DNA from: Vulcanimicrobiota bacterium | GTDB taxonomy: Bacteria > Vulcanimicrobiota > Vulcanimicrobiia > Vulcanimicrobiales > Vulcanimicrobiaceae | Assembly (NCBI GenBank): GCA_028287565.1 | Contig: JAQBPK010000054.1 | Span: 25,169 to 89,168, forward strand | Direction of reading: 5' to 3' | DNA: 64,000 nucleotides | Shown here: in pieces, positions 370 through 54,745 of the stretch | Layout: every line of letters starts with the position of its first letter | Numbering within the stretch: the first letter of the stretch is position 1 | Notes under the pieces: model-generated | Database searches by the model: none | Told to the model about the DNA's origin: nothing | What the model saw: the letters and a program-made list of their open reading frames with translations, nothing else | Program-made: the position numbers and the translations under genes

Positions 370-1748
370 CGGCTGCGTACGAGGCATTCCTCGCATCGAA
401 GGTAGCGCTGGCCCAGCCGTGCGGAATCCGTGTTCCCGACGAGGCGCTCCCCTCGTGGCTTTTTGATTTCCAGCGAGCAATCACGCCGTGGGCGCTAGGT
501 CGCGGCCGCGCCGCAATCTTCGCCGCGACCGGGCTTGGCAAAACGGCGATGCAGCTCGCCTGGGCGGAGCGGGTCGCGATCGAGACCGCCGCCCCCGTTC
601 TGCTACTCGCACCGCTCGCCGTCGGTCAGCAGACCGCGGGAGAAGCGAAACGGTTCGGCGCCGCGGCAACGCTGTGCCGCGAACATTCTGACGTGCGGGC
701 GGGAATCAATATCACGAACTACGATCGGCTCGACCACTTCGACCCTTCGGCCTTCGGCGGCGTTGTACTCGACGAAAGCTCAATCCTCAAGGCGTACGAC
801 GGCGCGACGCGAGCGGCGCTGACCGAAGCGTTCTCCCGCACCGCGTATCGGCTCGCGTGCACGGCGACGCCGGCACCGAACGATATAATGGAGCTCGCGA
901 ACCACGCGGAGTTTCTCGGCGTGATGACTCGCGCCGAAATGCTAGCGACATTCTTCGTGCACGATGGAGGCGAAACGCAGAAGTGGCGGCTGAAGGGTCA
1001 CGCTGAGTCGGACTTCTGGCGGTGGATGGCATCGTGGGCTGTCATGTTCACGTCGCCGGCAGACTTGGGATTCGACGGCGAGCGCTACGTGCTGCCGCCG
1101 CTCTCGATTCGCGAGCACGTCCTCGACGCGCCCGCGACGTCGCACGATTCGCTGTTCGCCCTAGAGGCGTCAACGCTGATGGAGCGCCGCGCCGCCAGGC
1201 GTGCGAGTCTTTCGGATCGCGTGCGCCGCGTTGCCGAGCTCGTCGCGGCTGAACCGGACGAGCCGTGGCTGATCTGGTGCGACCTCAACGACGAAGCGGG
1301 AGCGCTTGCCGCCATCATTCCGGGCGCGACCGAGGTGCGCGGAACGGATGATCCCGATGAGAAGGAGTCCGCGCTGCTCGCATTCTCGCGCGGCGAAGCG
1401 CGCGTCCTCGTCACGAAACCGAGCATTGCGGGTTTCGGGATGAATTGGCAGCATTGCGCGCGGATCGCGTTTTGCGGCGTCTCCGACTCCTGGGAGGCGT
1501 TTCACCAGGCGATTCGGCGGTGCTGGCGCTTTGGGCAGCGGCGTGAAGTGTTGGTGCACGTCGTTAGTACGACGACGGAAAACGCCGTGCTGCGCAACCT
1601 GCAACGGAAGGAACGCGGCGCCGCTGCGATGACCGCGGCGATGGTGGCGCAAATGCAGCTGCATAGCGATGTCGTCCGCGGGCGACCGATCGCACCTGAC
1701 GCCGCCGAGCGACGATACATCATTCCTGAATGGCTGAAAGTAGCATGA
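366..1748 (+). CDS. SNF2/DEAD-like phage helicase
   Basis: Walker A ATGLGKTA, Walker B VVLDESS, motif III CTATPAPND, motif VI QAIRRCWRFGQ; ATGA-coupled start. Confidence 0.85.
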   Translation: MTAAYEAFLASKVALAQPCGIRVPDEALPSWLFDFQRAITPWALGRGRAAIFAATGLGKTAMQLAWAERVAIETAAPVLLLAPLAVGQQTAGEAKRFGAAATLCREHSDVRAGINITNYDRLDHFDPSAFGGVVLDESSILKAYDGATRAALTEAFSRTAYRLACTATPAPNDIMELANHAEFLGVMTRAEMLATFFVHDGGETQKWRLKGHAESDFWRWMASWAVMFTSPADLGFDGERYVLPPLSIREHVLDAPATSHDSLFALEASTLMERRAARRASLSDRVRRVAELVAAEPDEPWLIWCDLNDEAGALAAIIPGATEVRGTDDPDEKESALLAFSRGEARVLVTKPSIAGFGMNWQHCARIAFCGVSDSWEAFHQAIRRCWRFGQRREVLVHVVSTTTENAVLRNLQRKERGAAAMTAAMVAQMQLHSDVVRGRPIAPDAAERRYIIPEWLKVA

Positions 1749-2644
1749 TTGACCAATTCGTCTGCGACGACTTCGCGCTCTACAACGACGATTGCGTAGA
1801 GGTCGCGCGCAATCTGCCAGCGTCTTCGCTCCATTACGCTCTGTTCTCGCCGCCATTCGCGTCGCTCTACACGTATACGGCGAGCGAGCGCGATATGGGG
1901 AACTGCCGCGATCACGGGGAGTTCTTCGACCACTTCGCCTTCCTCGTCGCGGAGTTGCGCCGCGTTCTTAAGCCGGGACGCCTCGTGTCGTTCCATTGCA
2001 TGAACCTGCCCACGAAAAAGTCCGTGGACGGATGGATCGGGCTGCGCGACTTTCGCGGGGATCTGATCCGCGCATTCGAGCGCGAGCGATTCATCCTACA
2101 CAGCGAGGTCACGATCTGGAAGGACCCGGTGACGCAAATGCAGCGCACGAAGGCCTTGGGGCTGCTCTATAAGCAGCTTCGCAAGGACTCTGCAATGTCG
2201 CGCCAGGGCCTGCCCGACTATCTCGTCACGATGCGCGCACCAGGCGAGAATGCGGAACCGATCACCAAGGACACCACGACGTTCCCGGTCGGGCTGTGGC
2301 AAGAGTACGCGTCGCCCGTCTGGATGGACGTGAATCCGTCCGACACACTACAACGCGAGTCGGCGCGCGAAGAGAAGGACGAACGCCACATCGCTCCGCT
2401 GCAACTGTCTGTGATCCGCCGCGCAGTGACGCTTTGGACAAACCCGGCTGACATTGTGTTCTCGCCGTTCGCCGGCATCGGCAGCGAGGGTTATGAGGCG
2501 ATCAAGCTTGGTCGCCGGTTCGTCGGATCGGAGCTTAAGCGCTCTTACTACAACCAGGCGCTCGGGAATCTGCGAACCGCCGTCGCCGAGCGCGATATGT
2601 CGCTATTCGCGCAGCACCCCGGATCGGTAACGGCTGCATCGTGA
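1745..2644 (+). CDS. Site-specific DNA methyltransferase (SPPF-type catalytic motif)
   Basis: ALFSPPFASLYTY motif IV; C-terminal VFSPFAGIGSEGYEA motif I; starts MIDQFVCDDF; ATGA overlap with helicase. Confidence 0.8.
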   Translation: MIDQFVCDDFALYNDDCVEVARNLPASSLHYALFSPPFASLYTYTASERDMGNCRDHGEFFDHFAFLVAELRRVLKPGRLVSFHCMNLPTKKSVDGWIGLRDFRGDLIRAFERERFILHSEVTIWKDPVTQMQRTKALGLLYKQLRKDSAMSRQGLPDYLVTMRAPGENAEPITKDTTTFPVGLWQEYASPVWMDVNPSDTLQRESAREEKDERHIAPLQLSVIRRAVTLWTNPADIVFSPFAGIGSEGYEAIKLGRRFVGSELKRSYYNQALGNLRTAVAERDMSLFAQHPGSVTAAS

Positions 2645-2780: not shown

Positions 2781-4583
2781 ATGAGAACCGTCGAAGTCTG
2801 CGACCTCTTCTGCGGCGCCGGCGGCTCATCGACCGGCCTACAGCGCGCAGCCGATGAGTTCGGCGTGCCGATGCGCTTGACGGCCGTGAACCATTGGGAC
2901 GTTGCGATCGCGACGCATTCGGCGAACCATCCCGAGCACCGGCATTGGTGCGAAGACATCGACACCGCAAAGCCGTTCAAGATCGTCCCCGAAGGCCACC
3001 TCGACATTTTGTGGGCGTCGCCGAGCTGCACGGAGCATTCGTACGCCAAGGGCGGCGGCGACGTCGACGATCAGAAGCGCGCGTCCGCGTGGGCGATTCC
3101 GCGCATGGTCGAAGCGCTGCGTCCGCGCGTCGTCGTCGTCGAGAACGTGCGCCCGTTCTTGAAGTGGGGTCCGGTTCAGGTCTCCAAGACCGGTAAGGTG
3201 CGGCCGATCGCGAGCCGCCGCGGCGAGACCTTCCGGGCGTGGTGCGCCGCGATCGAATCGCTCGGCTACACCTGCTCGTGGAACCTGCTTAACGCCGCCG
3301 ATTACGGCGAGCCGCAGACGCGCGTGCGGCTGTTCGTCACGTTCGTATCGAACGGCGTACGCTGGCGCTGGCCCGAGCCCTCGCACGCGCGGCCCGACTC
3401 GCTCGAGGTGTCCGCGGGGACGCGGCTCCCGTGGGTGGCGGCGCGGCGGATCATCGATTGGGCGCTGCCGTCGCAGTCCATCTTCGCTCGCGAGCGCCCG
3501 CTCTCGCCGAACACCATGCGGCGGATCGAGGCGGGCATCCGGCGCTACTGCGCGGGCCCGCTGGCCGAAGCGTTCTTGGTCGTGCTGCGCAAGCACGCGG
3601 ACGCGCAGAGCTGCGACGATCCGACGCCCACGGTGACGGCTGGCGGAACGCACATCGGGATTGCGGAGCCGACGCTGACGCCGTTCATCGGCGCGAACCG
3701 CACGAACAATGAAGCGCGCGACGTCGCGGACCCGATCGCGACGGTCACGACCGCGACGGGCGGCGGACTGTTCCTCGCGCAGCCGACGGCGTTCGTCCTC
3801 GGCCAGCACGGCGGGAGCGAAGCGCGTAGCGTCGACCAGCCGATCCCGACCGTCACGACGGACGGCTACACCCGCGTCTTCACGGTCGACGTGCGCCACG
3901 GCGAGGATGATATGCGGATGCAGCTCCTTGATGATCCGCTCGCGACCGTGACGGCAAAAAACGGCGTCGGGATCGTCGAGCCGTTCATCTCGTCGTACGA
4001 ACGCGAAGGCGACGGAATACCGTCTCGCCCGCGCTCGCTGGACGAACCCCTCGGAACGATCGTCACGCGCGACCGCTTCGCTGTGGTGGAACCGTTCATC
4101 ACGTCGTACTACGGCGATGGAGACGGCGGCGAGCACCAGCCGCGCTCGACGGACGATCCGCTGCCGACCGTCACGACCGCCAGCCGCTTTGGCGTCGTCG
4201 AACCGTTCCTCGCAGCGCACTTCGGCGAACGCGACGGCCAGGAGCCGCGAACGCATGCGGTCACTGAGCCGCTGCCGACCGTGACGCACCGAGGAGCCGG
4301 CGACCTCGTCGAGCCGATCATCGCACCCGCTGAGCCGAACGCGCCCGGCCGCGTCGTCGAAATCGACGGCAAGCCCTACGTGCTCGACGTGCGGTTCCGC
4401 ATGCTGCAGCCGCACGAGCTCGCGCTGGCGCAAGGCTTCCCCGCCGGTTACGTCTTCACCGGATCCAAAGCCGCGCAGACGGCGCAGATCGGCAACGCCG
4501 TCCCCGTCGGCGTCGCGCACGCGCTCGGCCGCGCCGCGCTCTACGCGCTCGGCTATCGCGAGACTGCGGAGTCCGTCGCGTGA
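2781..4583 (+). CDS. DNA (cytosine-5) methyltransferase with expanded internal repeat region
   Basis: DLFCGAGGSSTGL motif I, ASPSCTEHS catalytic PSC-like motif, VVVENVRPF ENV motif, C-terminal QGFPAGYVFTG...QIGNAVPVGVAHALG. Confidence 0.9.
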   Translation: MRTVEVCDLFCGAGGSSTGLQRAADEFGVPMRLTAVNHWDVAIATHSANHPEHRHWCEDIDTAKPFKIVPEGHLDILWASPSCTEHSYAKGGGDVDDQKRASAWAIPRMVEALRPRVVVVENVRPFLKWGPVQVSKTGKVRPIASRRGETFRAWCAAIESLGYTCSWNLLNAADYGEPQTRVRLFVTFVSNGVRWRWPEPSHARPDSLEVSAGTRLPWVAARRIIDWALPSQSIFARERPLSPNTMRRIEAGIRRYCAGPLAEAFLVVLRKHADAQSCDDPTPTVTAGGTHIGIAEPTLTPFIGANRTNNEARDVADPIATVTTATGGGLFLAQPTAFVLGQHGGSEARSVDQPIPTVTTDGYTRVFTVDVRHGEDDMRMQLLDDPLATVTAKNGVGIVEPFISSYEREGDGIPSRPRSLDEPLGTIVTRDRFAVVEPFITSYYGDGDGGEHQPRSTDDPLPTVTTASRFGVVEPFLAAHFGERDGQEPRTHAVTEPLPTVTHRGAGDLVEPIIAPAEPNAPGRVVEIDGKPYVLDVRFRMLQPHELALAQGFPAGYVFTGSKAAQTAQIGNAVPVGVAHALGRAALYALGYRETAESVA

Positions 4584-4701: not shown

Positions 4702-5802
4702 GTGACGAAGGGGCGCGCGCTCGTCGTGAACGCATCCGTCGACCGCCCGCGTGGTGGTCGGCAGCAACTCGTCGCGTTCTACAACCTGGGCGCGCTGAAG
4801 CTCGCGGATTATTGGCGCGAGCAGGGCTTCGACGTGACGGAGCGTCCCGCGAATCCCGAAGGCCCGTTGCTCGACCTCGACGTGCGCGGATTCGATGCGG
4901 TCGGCGAGTCGGCGATATTCTCCTGGCACGTTCCACGCGCAGCTGAGATCGCGCACGCGGCGAAAGAGGCGGGCGCGAACGTCACCGCAGGCGGTCCCGG
5001 TTTCGTGAAACTGCGTTCGTGGTTCAAGGACCGCACCGGCGTCTCGCCGTTCTGGAAGCCGCATCCGAAGTTCGACCTACAACGCGCGAAACGCAAATAC
5101 GTCTACGCGGTGCGCGGGTGTGAAGGTGAGCGCCTCGACGACGGATCGCACCGCCCATGCGACTTCTGCCCGGTCATCGCGATCGAGGGTAGCGAGTACA
5201 AGTACGACGAGGACTTCATCCCCGCCGAATGCGAGCTCACGAACAATCCGTCCGGGATGCCGGAGTGGATGCAGGAAGCGGTCATCCGCAAGTACACGGT
5301 GACCGGGACAAAGCTCATCGACATGAAGAGCGGCTTCGAACCCGGGCATTTCGACGAGGCCGCGTATGCCCGGTGGCGTCCGATCATTCGCGGGCCGTGG
5401 CGCTGGGGCTTCGACCGCATCGACGAGGAGCACAACGCGGGGCGCATGGCGCGCATCCTGGCCGACGTGTCACCGCGCCGTAAGATGGTGTACGCCATGT
5501 GCGGGCACGAGCCGATCGCGACGTGCTACGAACGGGCGCGGAAGGTGATCGAGTGGGGTTGCGAGCCGTGGGTGCAGTTCATGATTCCGCTGACCGCTCG
5601 CGATCGCTACGACCCCGCGACGTGGGCCGACGAGGATCGGGTGAAGCTCGAAAAGTCGGAGTGGACGGTGCAGCTCGGCAACGACTTCGCGCGCTACTAC
5701 TGCGGGCGCATCTGGAAGGCGTCACCGATCTGGGAGTACCGTCCGCGCATACACGAACCGCCGCCGTTCGCTGCGCTGAAACCAGCGAGCATCGCGGCAT
5801 GA
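4702..5802 (+). CDS. Radical-SAM-like phage protein with N-terminal B12-binding-like region
   Basis: GTG start; NLGALKLADYWREQGFDV, GGPGFVK, RGC-x12-CDFC cluster-like motif, WGFDRIDE and later radical-SAM barrel-like segments. Confidence 0.65.
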   Translation: MTKGRALVVNASVDRPRGGRQQLVAFYNLGALKLADYWREQGFDVTERPANPEGPLLDLDVRGFDAVGESAIFSWHVPRAAEIAHAAKEAGANVTAGGPGFVKLRSWFKDRTGVSPFWKPHPKFDLQRAKRKYVYAVRGCEGERLDDGSHRPCDFCPVIAIEGSEYKYDEDFIPAECELTNNPSGMPEWMQEAVIRKYTVTGTKLIDMKSGFEPGHFDEAAYARWRPIIRGPWRWGFDRIDEEHNAGRMARILADVSPRRKMVYAMCGHEPIATCYERARKVIEWGCEPWVQFMIPLTARDRYDPATWADEDRVKLEKSEWTVQLGNDFARYYCGRIWKASPIWEYRPRIHEPPPFAALKPASIAA

Positions 5803-12924: not shown

Positions 12925-13818
12925 ATGGCCGACGCGATCGTGCTCGTCGAACCCGCACTGCCGGCTGAAAAACGCGCTTATAAAATAAGCGACGGACGCA
13001 GGCCGACCGATCCCGAGCTGATCGACCTCTGGCTGCACGGTCGACCGCGCAACACCGTCACGGCCTACCGACGTGACGTGCGCCGGATGCTCGACTTCAT
13101 CGGCGTCCCGATCGGGGCCGTCCGACTCGTCGACCTTCACGCCTTCGCTGACTCGCTCGTCGGCGAACCTGCGACACGCAAGCGCGTGCTGAGCGCGACG
13201 AAGAGCCTACTGAAGTTCCTGGCCACGGCCGGCGCGATCGAGTACAACGTCGGCGCAGCGCTACGCGTGCCAAAGGGCCGCGACGCCCTGGCGGACCGGA
13301 TCCTCACCAAGGCCGACACGAAAAAGTTGCTCCGCTCGGGGCGACGGCCGCGCGACACCGCGCTACTGCGCCTGCTCTACGAGGGCGGCTTCCGCCGCGG
13401 CGAGCTCGCATCGCTGCGCTGGGTCGGAGTCGTTGCCGGCGAGGGATGCGCCTACGTCACCGTCGTGGGTAAGGGTTCGAAGACCCGGACCGTCCGCATC
13501 TCCAGCGACACGCTGGCCGCGCTCAACGCTCTCCGGGGCGAGGCGGCTGACGATGCGCCGGTCTTCACCGGACGACGCGGTGCCGCGCTCTCGGAGTCGC
13601 AGGTCTGGCGCGTCGTTCGCGGCGCTGCGAAGCGGGCGGGGCTGACCAAGCCGGTCAGTCCGCACTTCCTGCGACACGCGCACGCCTCGCACGCGCTCGA
13701 CGCCGGCGCCCCGATCGCGCTCGTCCGCGACACGCTCGGCCATTCGAGCGTCGCGGTCACGGACCGCTACCTTCACGCACGGCCAACCGAATCGAGCGGC
13801 AAGTACCTGCGGCTCTGA
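12925..13818 (+). CDS. tyrosine recombinase/integrase
   Basis: RLLYEGGFRRGELASLRW, SPHFLRHAHASHALDAGAPIALVRDTLGHSSVAVTDRYLH. Confidence 0.92.
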   Translation: MADAIVLVEPALPAEKRAYKISDGRRPTDPELIDLWLHGRPRNTVTAYRRDVRRMLDFIGVPIGAVRLVDLHAFADSLVGEPATRKRVLSATKSLLKFLATAGAIEYNVGAALRVPKGRDALADRILTKADTKKLLRSGRRPRDTALLRLLYEGGFRRGELASLRWVGVVAGEGCAYVTVVGKGSKTRTVRISSDTLAALNALRGEAADDAPVFTGRRGAALSESQVWRVVRGAAKRAGLTKPVSPHFLRHAHASHALDAGAPIALVRDTLGHSSVAVTDRYLHARPTESSGKYLRL

Positions 13819-25401: not shown

Positions 25402-26493
25402 ATGTCGCGTAACGGTCCACGTCAACAGCGCGTCGAGAAGCCGAGCGTTCGTGCTCAGCAGCCCGCAGCGCCGGACGACTCCACTTCGCAGCGCGCCGCG
25501 CTACGCGTCGACGTACGCGCGCTAGCGCCGATCGCTCCGTACTTGGACGCCATCGAGCCGCTCGCAGCCGCGCTCGCGGAGATCGACGTGACGTTCGCAA
25601 CCGGCGACGACGTGCAAGCCCACGACCCCATTCTTTTCATCGGCGAGCCCGCGCGCTGGCAATCGTTCCCCGACCGCCGCAGCATCGGCGCGCTCGCGCC
25701 CGACGCGTCGGCGCTGCCGGACGCCGCGGTCATCGCGCTCGCGTGCGTGGACGCAATTCTCGCTCCCTCGCAGTGGGCCGCCGGCATCGTGCGCAACGCC
25801 GCTCCCGAGCACGTGCGCGTCATCATCGCACAGCCGGGCGTCGACACCGCTGCGTTCCCGCTCGTCGAGCGCGTGCGCGGACCCGTCTTTCGCCTGCTGG
25901 TCGATCTCGGCCACGTGGATGCGATTCGCGGCGGCGCGGACCTTGCGATCAACGCCTTCGCACGCGCCTTCCCCGACCGTGACGACGTGCAACTCGTCAT
26001 CGACGCGGCCGCTCCGATCGAGATCTCGCGGCCCGACCTACGCGTCGCCTTCTCGCGCGAGCGCCGCAGTGCGGCCGACCGGGCGCGACTCTTCGCTTCG
26101 GTCGACGCGCTCGTGCACGTCCCGCGCTGCGACCCCGATGGACGCACCGCGCTGGCTGCGATGGCGGCCGGCCTGCCGGTGATCCTTGCGGACGGATCGG
26201 CGCTCCATGAGATTGCCGAGCACGCGCTCGCGGTTCCGACGCGCGACGTCCCGGCGTACGGCTCCGAAGCCGGTGCAAACGCGCGCTGGTACGAGGCCGA
26301 CGTCGACGCGCTCGCGGACGCCATGCGCTCCGTCGAGACCGACTACGCCACCGCGCTGGAACGCGCCCGCGCCGCCTCGGAGTACGTCGCGCGCACGCGG
26401 ACCTGGGCCGCAACCGCGGCGGCAATTCGAACAGCGCTCGACCGCATCGAGCACCCCGACACCTCACCCGCCGCCCTGGAGATAACCGCATGA
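25402..26493 (+). CDS. glycosyltransferase (GT4-like) in head module
   Basis: DAILAPSQWAAGIVRNAAPEHVRVIIAQPGVDTAAFP; DALVHVPRCDPDGRTALAAMAAGLPVILADGSALHEI. Confidence 0.8.
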   Translation: MSRNGPRQQRVEKPSVRAQQPAAPDDSTSQRAALRVDVRALAPIAPYLDAIEPLAAALAEIDVTFATGDDVQAHDPILFIGEPARWQSFPDRRSIGALAPDASALPDAAVIALACVDAILAPSQWAAGIVRNAAPEHVRVIIAQPGVDTAAFPLVERVRGPVFRLLVDLGHVDAIRGGADLAINAFARAFPDRDDVQLVIDAAAPIEISRPDLRVAFSRERRSAADRARLFASVDALVHVPRCDPDGRTALAAMAAGLPVILADGSALHEIAEHALAVPTRDVPAYGSEAGANARWYEADVDALADAMRSVETDYATALERARAASEYVARTRTWAATAAAIRTALDRIEHPDTSPAALEITA

Positions 26494-50749: not shown

Positions 50750-50935
50750 ATGCCGCACAGCCTCACCAACACCCACCGCTCGAACCTCCGCCGCATCCCG
50801 GTCGCGCTGCACTACCGCGCACACCTCGCGGCCGATCCTCCGTGCGGCAACCGCTACGGGCGCGCGACGAGCCACCGCGACGCCGTGACGTGCCGCGAAT
50901 GCCGCGAGGGGCTCGGGCTGAAGGACGCGGCGTGA
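50750..50935 (+). CDS. hypothetical protein
   Basis: MPHSLTNTHRSNLRRIPVALHYRAHLAADPPCGN... divergent. Confidence 0.5.
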   Translation: MPHSLTNTHRSNLRRIPVALHYRAHLAADPPCGNRYGRATSHRDAVTCRECREGLGLKDAA

Positions 50936-51072
50936 TGGCGACCTACTTCCCGCCCGTGGTCACCGAAGGAATCGCGCCGCATCCGTTCGCCGGCGACCGT
51001 GACGGGCCGTGCACGAGTTGCGGCGACCCGTTGTGGACGCATGATGAACCCGATGCGAGCGAGGTGGCGTGA
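50935..51072 (+). CDS. small Cys protein
   Basis: GPCTSCGDPLWTH. Confidence 0.45.
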   Translation: MATYFPPVVTEGIAPHPFAGDRDGPCTSCGDPLWTHDEPDASEVA

Positions 51073-51296
51073 TGCGCTTTCAGCTCACCATCGAACTCCG
51101 CGACGGCATGACGGGCGGCTCAGTCGCTCGCGCGATCCGCGGCGTTGCCGCTATCCTGAAAGCGTACCGCGCAAACGTCGCGCTATCTCCGCTGACAACG
51201 AGCGGCGCGGGCGGGCTGATCGAGTCGGCGCTGACCGTGCGTGATTTGCAAGGGCGCGTCATCGGCTCGTGGTCCGTCACGGAGGACGAGTCGTGA
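51072..51296 (+). CDS. hypothetical protein
   Basis: 74 aa coupled. Confidence 0.5.
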   Translation: MRFQLTIELRDGMTGGSVARAIRGVAAILKAYRANVALSPLTTSGAGGLIESALTVRDLQGRVIGSWSVTEDES

Positions 51297-51685
51297 TGCG
51301 CCCCGATACCGCGAAGGCCCCCGCCGACACTCTCGCGATGCTCGATGCAGCGCTGGCTCGCGCAGACAGATACGGACGCATACAGTACGCTCGCGTCGCG
51401 AAGGGGCAAGTCGTCGATTACGCTGCGATTGGTTCGACCTTCGAGGATGACGCGGACTTCGTCGTTCTCCCGCATTCGTTCGCCACGCCCGGCGTCGTAT
51501 TCTGTGATGACAGCCGCGGCTTCGTTCACCCGTTCGACGAGGCTCGTCGGCTCTTGGCGAACGATGCGCCAGAGGCACTCTGCTCCTGCGGCCACGTAGC
51601 AGGGTCGATGAACTGTTCGAACATGAGCGCCGAAGCGCACGGCGGCGGGACACTCGCGCTTCCGCCGAGCGAGGCAAACCGATGA
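51296..51685 (+). CDS. hypothetical protein
   Basis: 129 aa coupled. Confidence 0.5.
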   Translation: MRPDTAKAPADTLAMLDAALARADRYGRIQYARVAKGQVVDYAAIGSTFEDDADFVVLPHSFATPGVVFCDDSRGFVHPFDEARRLLANDAPEALCSCGHVAGSMNCSNMSAEAHGGGTLALPPSEANR

Positions 51686-52119
51686 CAAACACCGCGAAGG
51701 CCCTGAGCGCCGCGGAACTCGTGAAGCTGGCGGAGGAGGCTGCGACGGAGTGGTTCGCGCGATCCACCCGTATCACGAAGGGCGTTCCGTACATGTGCGT
51801 CTACGAGGACGGCTTATACGACTACGCCACGAAGTTGCTGACGCAATGCCAAGGCGTCAACGGATTCGACCTCGTCTTCTGTGCCCCGCTCACCCCCGAG
51901 AACGTCGCCTCCCCGCTCGCGCTGAAAAGGGCGCTGCTCGCGAGCGCGATCGTGGTCGAACCCTCGACGCCACGAAGCCCGCGATGGTTCTTCGCAAAGC
52001 TGGGTGGCCGAATGATCGCTACGCCCGCGAAAAACGGAGAAGGACCGACGCCGGAGATCGCGCTATCGCGCGGCCTCGACGCCCTACTCGCGTCTCCCCC
52101 GCCCGTGGAGAAGGCGTGA
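51682..52119 (+). CDS. hypothetical protein
   Basis: 145 aa coupled. Confidence 0.5.
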   Translation: MTNTAKALSAAELVKLAEEAATEWFARSTRITKGVPYMCVYEDGLYDYATKLLTQCQGVNGFDLVFCAPLTPENVASPLALKRALLASAIVVEPSTPRSPRWFFAKLGGRMIATPAKNGEGPTPEIALSRGLDALLASPPPVEKA

Positions 52120-52514
52120 TGGCCGACAAACCGCCGATCCGCGCCGATGCAGCCGAATGCCACATCGTCTCGTACGCCGATTTCGTGCGAATGCCGGAAG
52201 GGACGATCTTCTCGACGTGGGAGCCGAACATCGTTGGCGAGCCGATGGTGAAAGGCGAGACGTGGTTCGACGAAGACGGAAGCCCGCTCGACTTCATCGA
52301 GTCCACGCTCGGCGCTCGTCTGTATCTCGAAGACAAAGGGGGCGTCGACCACCGCAACCCACGCATCGCGGTCGACCGAATCGCCGGTCGTAACGGACTG
52401 TTTGAGCGCGAGGCGGAGTTTATCGTGTATCCGCCCGCCGCGATCCGACTGATGATCGCACGACTTAAAGAGGCGTTGGCGGCGTCTGCCTCGGGCGAAA
52501 CGGAGGGTGCGTGA
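52119..52514 (+). CDS. hypothetical protein
   Basis: 131 aa coupled. Confidence 0.5.
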   Translation: MADKPPIRADAAECHIVSYADFVRMPEGTIFSTWEPNIVGEPMVKGETWFDEDGSPLDFIESTLGARLYLEDKGGVDHRNPRIAVDRIAGRNGLFEREAEFIVYPPAAIRLMIARLKEALAASASGETEGA

Positions 52515-52651
52515 TGCACATTCAACCTGACGCGTGGTGGTGGGCAGTCGCCGGTGCCGGGCTCGGCATTCTGTGGAGCATCCAAGCCGCGCTCTATCGT
52601 ATCGCTCGCGCCGTCGAAGCGGCGAACGACATTGCGCGGAAGGAACGCTGA
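52514..52651 (+). CDS. 45-aa single-TM protein
   Basis: MHIQPDAWWWAVAGAGLGILWSIQAALYRIARAVEAANDIARKER. Confidence 0.5.
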   Translation: MHIQPDAWWWAVAGAGLGILWSIQAALYRIARAVEAANDIARKER

Positions 52652-53106
52652 TGGCTGAGCACAACGCTGCCGAGATCGTCGGGCTGGCGCGCGAGATCGT
52701 CCCGAAGCAATACGACGGCGCGCGGCGGATGGCTGCGCGATACAAGCACGAGTACATGAACGTCGTTCGCGACGTCACGGGCGAAGCGGCGGCCTACACG
52801 ACGCGCTACCGTCCCAGCGAGAAAGCCGTGCTCTCCGCGCCGCTAAACGCCGAGACGACGGCTTCACCCGAGGCGCTCTCGCGCGCGCTGGTCGCCAGCC
52901 GCATCGTCGTCGAGGACGCATGGCTCCTGCGCGGCTACAAGACCGCGCGGCTGACCGGCATCGGCGGTATCCGATCATTCAGCACGTCGGGCAGCGAGGA
53001 GGATGCGCGCAACGGGCTGCTCGACCACCTGTTCGCAACGGAGCCCGACGCAGCCCACGCGCGCCTCGTCGAGTCCATCGTGTTCGATGCGGAGGGGACG
53101 TCGTAG
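52651..53106 (+). CDS. hypothetical protein
   Basis: 151 aa coupled. Confidence 0.5.
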   Translation: MAEHNAAEIVGLAREIVPKQYDGARRMAARYKHEYMNVVRDVTGEAAAYTTRYRPSEKAVLSAPLNAETTASPEALSRALVASRIVVEDAWLLRGYKTARLTGIGGIRSFSTSGSEEDARNGLLDHLFATEPDAAHARLVESIVFDAEGTS

Positions 53107-53873
53107 TGCGATTCTTCGTCGGCCTGCACCATCCGCACGTCGCCGGGCGATTCGCCACCGCGTTCATCAGCGTCAACGCGCTCCGTCGCCGCAAGGGCGC
53201 GTTCCCGGCGCAGGACTGGATCATGGACAGCGGCGCGTTCTCGACGATTGCCAAGCACGGCGGCTATCCCGAACCTGTCTCCGAATACGCTGCCGAAATC
53301 CGGCGCTGGGCCGCGAACGGCAACCTGCTTGCGGCGGTCGCGCAGGACTACATGTGCGAGGCGTGGATGCTCGCGAAGACGGGGCTCACCGTCGCGGATC
53401 ATCAGCGCCTCACCATCGAACGCTACGATGAGCTAGCCGCAAACGACACGGCGGGTGTGTGCGTCATGCCGGTGTTGCAGGGCTTCGAGCCCGCCGAGTA
53501 CGTCGCGCACCTTCGCGCCTACGGCACTCGCCTCGCGCCCGGCGCATGGGTCGGCGTCGGCTCGGTCTGCAAGCGCAACGGCAATGCAGCCACCATCGAA
53601 GCCGTGCTGCGCGCAATCAAGAACGAGCGCCCCGACCTGCGCCTGCACGGGTTCGGGCTGAAGACCACGGCGCTCGCGTCGGAAGCGGTGCGCGAGCTGC
53701 TCGACACCGCCGATAGCATGGCGTGGTCGTACGCCGCTCGGCGACAGGGCCGCGACGCGAACGATTGGACTGAAGCACGCCGGTTCGCCGATCTCATCGA
53801 GACCATGCCGATCCAGCGCCGGCTGTTCGCGCAGCGCGCATCGTGGCGACCGGCGGAAGCGGCGCTGGCGTGA
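53106..53873 (+). CDS. DpdA-like DNA 7-deazaguanine transglycosylase (TGT-fold) candidate
   Basis: FISVNALRRRKGAFPAQDWIMDSGAFSTIAKHGGYPEPVSEYAAEIRRWAA...MPVLQGFEPAEYVAHLRAYG...VGVGSVCKRNG...LHGFGLKTTAL...ADSMAWSYAARRQG. Confidence 0.7.
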   Translation: MRFFVGLHHPHVAGRFATAFISVNALRRRKGAFPAQDWIMDSGAFSTIAKHGGYPEPVSEYAAEIRRWAANGNLLAAVAQDYMCEAWMLAKTGLTVADHQRLTIERYDELAANDTAGVCVMPVLQGFEPAEYVAHLRAYGTRLAPGAWVGVGSVCKRNGNAATIEAVLRAIKNERPDLRLHGFGLKTTALASEAVRELLDTADSMAWSYAARRQGRDANDWTEARRFADLIETMPIQRRLFAQRASWRPAEAALA

Positions 53874-54745
53874 AGCCTGACGCCTACCAGATCCTCGTCC
53901 ACTGGATCACCGAGCGCGAGACCATCCGGCGCAAGAAGGAAGCGGGCGAGCCGCGCCCATGGACGAGCGATCCGATCCTCGCGGAATGGCGCTTCTGCAA
54001 CGTGAACCGCTGCGACGACCGCGAGACGCGCTGGATCTTTGAGCACATCATCGCGGCGCACGCCGACTCCGAGACGCTGTGGTTCAACCTCGCGATCGCG
54101 CGGTTCGTGAATTGGTCGCCCGCGCTCGCCCACATCGGGTACTTCGACGAATGGAATGCCGAGCATTTCGTCTGCGCCGTCCTCGACATGCAGCGCCACG
54201 GCGAGAAGGTCTACACGGGCGCGTACATGATCCCGGCCGGCGGCTCAGGTGTCCCGAAGCACGAGTTCCTCGCGGACGAGGTGTTCACTCCGCTCTGGCG
54301 GCTGCGCGGCGAGCGCCCGTGGGCGAAGCAGTGCTCGGAATGGGACGCGTTCTTCCGGCGCGTCCGGTGCATGGGCGACTTCCTGCGTAACCAGATCATC
54401 ACCGATATGAAGTACACGGCGGACTTACCACGGGACGCGACGCCGGATTGGACGTGGTTCGTGCTCGCCGGGCCGGGAACGCAGCGGGGACTCAGCCGCC
54501 TCCACGGCCGTCCGCTCGATACGAAATGGCGCGTTGACAATTCATGCTACGCGCTCTACGGGCTACGCGACCGACTGCGGGCGGACGGCGTTCTCGCCGA
54601 GACGCCGACAATCTTCGACGACCTGAACAACGTCTCGAATTGCATGTGCGAGTTCGATAAGTATTCGCGCGTGCTCCTCGGCGAAGGAACGCCGCGCGCG
54701 CGGTATGCGCCGCGGGTGATGGGTCTGTTCGGCGCGACGGGCTGA
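53870..54745 (+). CDS. hmU DNA kinase / alpha-glutamyl-putrescinyl-thymine pyrophosphorylase-like base hypermodification protein
   Basis: WRFCNVNRCDDRETRWIFEHIIAAHAD...VLAGPGTQRGLSRLHGRPL...NCMCEFDKYSRVLLGEGTPRARY. Confidence 0.7.
   Translation: MKPDAYQILVHWITERETIRRKKEAGEPRPWTSDPILAEWRFCNVNRCDDRETRWIFEHIIAAHADSETLWFNLAIARFVNWSPALAHIGYFDEWNAEHFVCAVLDMQRHGEKVYTGAYMIPAGGSGVPKHEFLADEVFTPLWRLRGERPWAKQCSEWDAFFRRVRCMGDFLRNQIITDMKYTADLPRDATPDWTWFVLAGPGTQRGLSRLHGRPLDTKWRVDNSCYALYGLRDRLRADGVLAETPTIFDDLNNVSNCMCEFDKYSRVLLGEGTPRARYAPRVMGLFGATG

Follow-up and report, generated by a model that had tools for sequence, protein, structure and literature searches.

DpdA-only phages were described by Hutinet et al. 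in 2019, and host or exogenous precursors were proposed for them (PMC6884629). They formed the largest phage group in that survey, in which the inserted base and its source were left open and YhhQ was correlated with no phage group (PMC6884629). The DNA of Mycobacterium phage Orion, which is DpdA-only, is without 7-deazaguanine (PMC6884629). 5hmdU DNA kinase activity has been established on phage DNA (PMC7653180).

In the locus described here, a gene of the DpdA family (gene A) is followed on the same strand by a gene of the HMUDK_hel family (gene B). The first-pass annotation had reported two overlapping open reading frames with a GTGA junction at 53106-54745, and the coordinates and the overlap were confirmed in the sequence.

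53106..53873, + strand: gene A, DpdA-family (TGT-fold) DNA base transglycosylase, 255 aa, GTG start
53870..54745, + strand: gene B, HMUDK_hel (5-hmdU DNA kinase helical domain, aGPT-PPlase clade 1), 291 aa, GTG start
53870..53873, + strand: GTGA stop/start overlap of A and B

The preferred reading, to which a probability of about 50% is assigned, is that A and B are two separate modification genes that lie side by side, namely a DpdA that inserts salvaged 7-deazaguanine and an orphan HMUDK_hel protein.

Genomic Context

The source MAG comprises 4.8 Mb in 399 contigs and is 83.7% complete. The window, which is the whole 64,000-nucleotide stretch that was analysed, corresponds to C327:25169-89168. 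The first 4.3 kb of contig C327 are occupied by host genes that are cysE-, cysS-, rlmB-, and sigH-like, as judged by eye from their translations. The integrase and DNA methyltransferase genes are as follows.

C327:5131-6321 (L010): integrase 1, after the host genes
12925-13818 of the window: integrase 2
1745..2644 of the window, + strand: N6/N4 DNA methyltransferase (PF01555, E 4e-16)
2781..4583 of the window, + strand: C5 cytosine DNA methyltransferase (PF00145, E 3.5e-38)

YqaJ and RecT recombination genes and a gene for a DnaB-like helicase are located near integrase 1, to the left of the window. Portal, tail, and endolysin genes are found within the window, together with terminase and major-head matches that are both weak. 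On the basis of the integrases and the phage structural and recombination genes, the element is therefore taken to be a single prophage or a nested pair; the two integrases may mark two nested or tandem integrated elements in C327. The two methyltransferases that had been noted at the left end of the window are present according to Pfam, and each represents a separate modification capacity.

Three other genes of the element were recorded. The gene at 4702-5802, directly after that of the C5 methyltransferase, encodes a protein that is rich in Cys over one stretch and matches a B12-binding profile below the threshold. At 25402-26493, amid the head and structural genes, lies a glycosyltransferase gene whose match to PF20706 (GT4-conflict) exceeds the cut-off, and a DUF5131 gene at L010:19126-19899 gives a match to "radical SAM mobile pair protein A" that falls below the cut-off.

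Genes A and B are preceded by the other genes of an operon.

50750..53106, + strand: upstream operon genes, with successive overlaps of 1-4 nt

All eight of the other operon junctions (50750 to 53106) overlap by 1-4 nt each; the start of gene A overlaps the upstream stop by 1 nt, and gene B is the final gene of the operon. Because overlap is general in the operon, the A/B overlap carries little weight, and the GTGA coupling was dropped as the mark of an A-B unit. Both reading frames are selected by codon-usage scoring, and their codon use resembles that of the rest of the window. The three upstream operon genes that were scanned against Pfam (50750-53106) gave no match. Two of the upstream genes, 51682-52119 and 52651-53106, are paralogues (36% over 92 aa), neither with a Pfam match; the latter is located directly upstream of dpdA and the former three genes earlier.

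Identification of Gene A

Gene A matches the Pfam family DpdA (PF23859) with an E of 1.6e-40 and 139 bits (cut-off 27), and PHROG 1279, "queuine tRNA-ribosyltransferase", with an E of 1.1e-61. The AlphaFold (AF2) model, built from an alignment of 36 sequences, has a mean pLDDT of 89. The best fold match of this model in the PDB is 7ui4, the DNA preQ0 insertase DpdA (E 2e-7, probability 1.00), and this entry is followed by a long series of tRNA-guanine transglycosylases. The family-conserved motifs DSGAF (D41), QDYMC (D81), LQG (Q125), VGVGSVCK (G152), and ADS (D203) are retained in A, and these five residues and their neighbours are invariant across the 36 DpdA sequences. From motif and spacing, they are taken here to be the equivalents of D102, D156, Q203, G230, and D280 of TGT. 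When the DpdA profile was compared with the host TGT using hhalign, the DSG motif alone was aligned and the result was non-significant. The closest relatives of A in cultured phages are encoded by Sinorhizobium, Rhizobium, and Microcystis phages (52-58% identity). A search of PDB sequences with A or B returned no relative, and no NCBIfam model matches either protein. The substrate of A would be DNA rather than tRNA, and the base inserted would be a 7-deazaguanine.

Supply of the 7-Deazaguanine Precursor

The prophage scans revealed neither a gene for preQ0 biosynthesis nor one for a Vut_1 transporter, in agreement with the earlier statement that preQ0 pathway genes are not recognisable in the window. 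The host MAG encodes TGT and QueD. For QueC, the MAG holds a divergent family gene only (L142:1270-1866, contig C53), which adjoins a phosphoribosyltransferase gene, and the QueC matches in relatives of the same genus, one of which is 99% complete, are weak only. The host genus thus seems to be without a canonical QueC. Since QueC is divergent in the MAG and weak in the genus, de novo synthesis of preQ0 by the host is doubtful and salvage is more likely.

The neighbours of dpdA in other elements bear on the same question. A gene of Vut_1, the queuosine-precursor transporter family, has dpdA as its direct neighbour on a plasmid of Nocardia and on five phage contigs, among them that of phage phiLM21 (gp25/gp26). 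On one short viral contig, dpdA is overlapped by a gene for QueD (PTPS).

L002:8771-9295: Vut_1 gene beside dpdA (phage phiLM21)
L028:6761-7309: Vut_1 gene beside dpdA
L029:6744-7271: Vut_1 gene beside dpdA
L254:3106-3606: Vut_1 gene beside dpdA
L259:8710-9207: Vut_1 gene beside dpdA
L160:4405-5004: Vut_1 gene beside dpdA (Nocardia plasmid)
L032:2350-2760: QueD (PTPS) gene overlapping dpdA

The occurrence of Vut_1 and QueD genes beside close relatives of A therefore supports the salvage of a 7-deazaguanine precursor, and the Vut_1-dpdA arrangement is likely a precursor-salvage pairing for DpdA-only phages. The proposal in the first-pass annotation that host precursors may be used gains from these neighbours and from the TGT and QueD genes of the host; the apparent lack of a canonical QueC in the host genus counts against it.

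Identification of Gene B

Gene B matches the Pfam family HMUDK_hel (PF18723) with an E of 3.6e-37 and 129 bits (cut-off 25), and PHROG 2396 with an E of 5e-53. The family scores of A and B are far beyond chance. The AlphaFold model of B was obtained from an alignment of 35 sequences with a mean pLDDT of 91. Among the predicted viral structures of BFVD, where the matches range from E 2e-15 to 2e-7, the top match is to PhiW-14 (E 2e-15, TM 0.84), whose protein carries the name 5-hmdU DNA kinase helical domain, and the 5-hmdU DNA kinase of SP10 is also matched (E 1.6e-7). Nothing significant was returned by the fold search against the PDB; the top entries were a 5-PmdU glycinyltransferase and a DNA glycosylase, with an E of about 1. 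All of the residues that are invariant over 35 homologues (21/21) are retained in B, which deviates at 5 positions that are conserved at ≥85% in the homologues. Judged from their sequences, neither A nor B resembles a pseudogene, the frames being full length and the invariant residues kept. Both family assignments made at first sight, DpdA-like with a TGT fold for A and hmU-kinase/aGPT-PPlase-like for B, are borne out by Pfam, PHROG, and the fold matches (7ui4 for A; PhiW-14 and SP10 for B).

A tree was built from 135 HMUDK_hel proteins, with a bootstrap that is not fully settled; in it, B clusters with L166 (support 100/99) on a long branch (1.34). A TS-like gene neighbours L166, and the two proteins are placed inside a part of the tree that is mostly TS-linked. 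A separate alphaproteobacterial clade, mostly from prophage and viral contigs, is also without a TS neighbour, and a search for a conserved neighbour within this clade found none. Since B and the alphaproteobacterial clade both lack the TS neighbour, the orphan HMUDK_hel seemingly arose more than once.

HMUDK_hel is also encoded in bacteria, where its cassette neighbours are MazG-type, TS-annotated, and HTH/ImmA-IrrE genes; four further genomes from the family of the MAG have it too. In addition, the domains that were newly validated in anti-phage defence include a "5-hmdU DNA kinase" domain and a thymidylate synthase (PMC13092281). These cassettes and this domain therefore make defence a reasonable rival for B, which would then be a prophage-borne gene directed against invading DNA or nucleotides and unrelated to A. 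However, B belongs to the phage branch rather than to the branch of the bacterial cassettes, the cassette partners are absent, and PADLOC gave no match for A or B. A defence role is thus distinctly unlikely.

Two cassette arrangements were recorded among the bacterial loci. In two genomes of the MAG's family (L161 of G065 and L162 of G090), HMUDK_hel adjoins MazG_C, as confirmed in L161, and a nearby gene is TIR-like by eye; these are candidate defence cassettes. On the plasmids L155 and L156 the order, as annotated, is HTH, ImmA/IrrE, thymidylate synthase, HMUDK_hel, and NTP pyrophosphohydrolase, and this cassette is common to Sinorhizobium and Allocoleopsis, a rhizobium and a cyanobacterium.

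Partners for Thymidine Hypermodification

The prophage was scanned for the genes that would serve B. No TS-like dUMP hydroxymethylase gene was found with the profiles, which confirms the earlier remark that none is recognisable, and no ThyA (PF00303) match was found in the MAG (83.7% complete). The profile for a P-loop kinase of the M6 gp54 type had no match in the window or in the C327 flank. From gene order, gp54 and gp55 of M6 are presumed to be the P-loop kinase and the helical domain, respectively. The profiles for the amino-acid:DNA transferase (ADDT) and for the M6-type radical SAM protein gave no match in the prophage. A TET/JBP search of the MAG also gave no match, but its controls gave none either, so that this negative carries no weight.

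With precursor and partner genes missing, A and/or B could be remnants that have no present activity. The unmodified DNA of Orion (PMC6884629) sets a precedent, from which it follows that A might be inactive or might insert a different base, and a truncated dpdA is known in another contig (L323). The full-length frames, the window-like codon use, and the retention of every family-invariant residue argue against such decay, which is considered rather unlikely.

Occurrence of the Gene Pair in Other Genomes

Our own profiles were used to scan loci taken from IMG/VR and GTDB genomes, some contigs having been fetched twice. None of the 153 DpdA loci has a nearby HMUDK_hel, TS-like, P-loop, or ADDT gene. 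At the HMUDK_hel loci, a TS-like gene is near in 103 of 128 and a P-loop kinase gene in 31 of 128; a piece of DpdA is near HMUDK_hel in L121 only. The adjacent dpdA-HMUDK_hel pair is not repeated in either set, so that the survey for conservation of the pair across phages returned no recurrence as neighbours. When whole records were scanned, HMUDK_hel was found in 1 of 50 DpdA records, and DpdA in 1 of 50 HMUDK_hel records.

Both chemistries are present in two other records, though never as neighbours. The first is the phage record G374 (IMGVR_UViG_3300037068_000078; L321 and L322), the sole other phage record found with both genes intact. Its DpdA gene is 26 kb from HMUDK_hel, which lies near a TS-like gene and a gene for a radical SAM/SPASM protein, and G374 is a candidate for two parallel base modifications. 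The second is G300, a Hydrogenedentota MAG, in which a truncated dpdA (L323:1678-2007) lies beside a full thymidine hypermodification (hmU) cluster.

These two records, and the 5hmdU DNA kinase activity established on phage DNA (PMC7653180), would favour two parallel modifications in the present prophage as well, with 7-deazaguanine inserted by A and 5-hydroxymethyl-dU phosphorylated by B from an hmU source that was not recognised. Against this stand the TS-like hydroxymethylase, found in neither the prophage nor the MAG, and the P-loop kinase, not found in the prophage. Two such modifications are highly unlikely here.

If both genes were placed at random among approximately 135 genes, adjacency by chance would be expected at about 1.5% by our own arithmetic, and room is therefore left for a functional link. 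A and B could form a true two-gene module in which A inserts 7-deazaguanine, with B targeting that same DNA or base or partnering A. The genes are adjacent, overlapping, intact, and on one strand. B is without any of its usual partners and is located on a long branch beside a relative with a TS link, which would fit a change of role, and the proteins that its fold weakly resembles, the 5-PmdU glycinyltransferase and the DNA glycosylase, are handlers of single bases in DNA. B might then serve as a DNA-binding, base-flipping, or specificity partner that replaces the kinase domain. However, the pair is unrepeated at the 153 and 128 loci, the two other records hold the genes 26 kb apart or with dpdA truncated, overlap is ordinary in the operon, and the 21 invariant residues kept in B favour the usual chemistry of the family over a new role. 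The combined-modification module put forward in the first-pass annotation therefore loses ground to the survey and to the general overlap in the operon. The module is unlikely, and the partner role of B is equally so. Joint work on one base, in which HMUDK_hel modifies the 7-deazaguanine inserted by DpdA or directs DpdA, is highly doubtful.

Proposed Functions

Two separate modification genes, side by side, therefore remain the preferred reading. A and B would have met at the accessory end of an operon in a temperate phage, each acting independently of the other. DpdA is predicted to replace guanines of the phage DNA with 7-deazaguanine (preQ0 or a related compound), used as the free base. This base would be provided by the host or by salvage, because neither prophage genes nor a complete host pathway were found. 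B would be derived from a lineage that served thymidine hypermodification and is now without the hydroxymethylase or the P-loop kinase. With its family residues intact, B probably still binds DNA and perhaps flips a base.

The Vut_1 and QueD neighbours point to precursor salvage for DpdA-only phages and make salvage testable. B has no recognised hmU source or kinase partner, yet it keeps the invariant residues, which raises the question of the function of the helical domain by itself. If A and B did act jointly, two chemistries would be joined that the survey otherwise found apart. If they acted on one base, this would be, to our knowledge, the first pathway to combine enzymes of the deazapurine-insertion and thymidine-hypermodification families.

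Comparison with Known Systems

Gene A is like the DpdA of the DpdA-only phages, such as Orion and Salmonella phage 7-11, in the TGT/DpdA fold, in the motifs, and in the lack of preQ0 genes found. It is approximately 41% identical to the mycobacteriophage DpdA set and is nearer to the DpdA proteins of the Sinorhizobium, Rhizobium, and Microcystis phages. Some of these sister phages carry Vut_1 beside dpdA, whereas none was found in this prophage. Gene B is of the same family as gp55 of Pseudomonas phage M6 and the proteins of Delftia phage PhiW-14 and Bacillus phage SP10, with the same all-helical fold and every invariant residue. Unlike these, B has no TS-like, M6 gp54-type P-loop, or amino-acid:DNA transferase neighbour and is adjoined by dpdA instead. 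The G374 phage has DpdA and HMUDK_hel in one phage, as here, but the genes are far apart and HMUDK_hel is near a TS-like gene. In Sinorhizobium phage phiLM21 (gp25-gp26), the DpdA is 54% identical to A and its gene overlaps a downstream gene at the position of B; that gene encodes a Vut_1 family queuosine-precursor transporter rather than HMUDK_hel.
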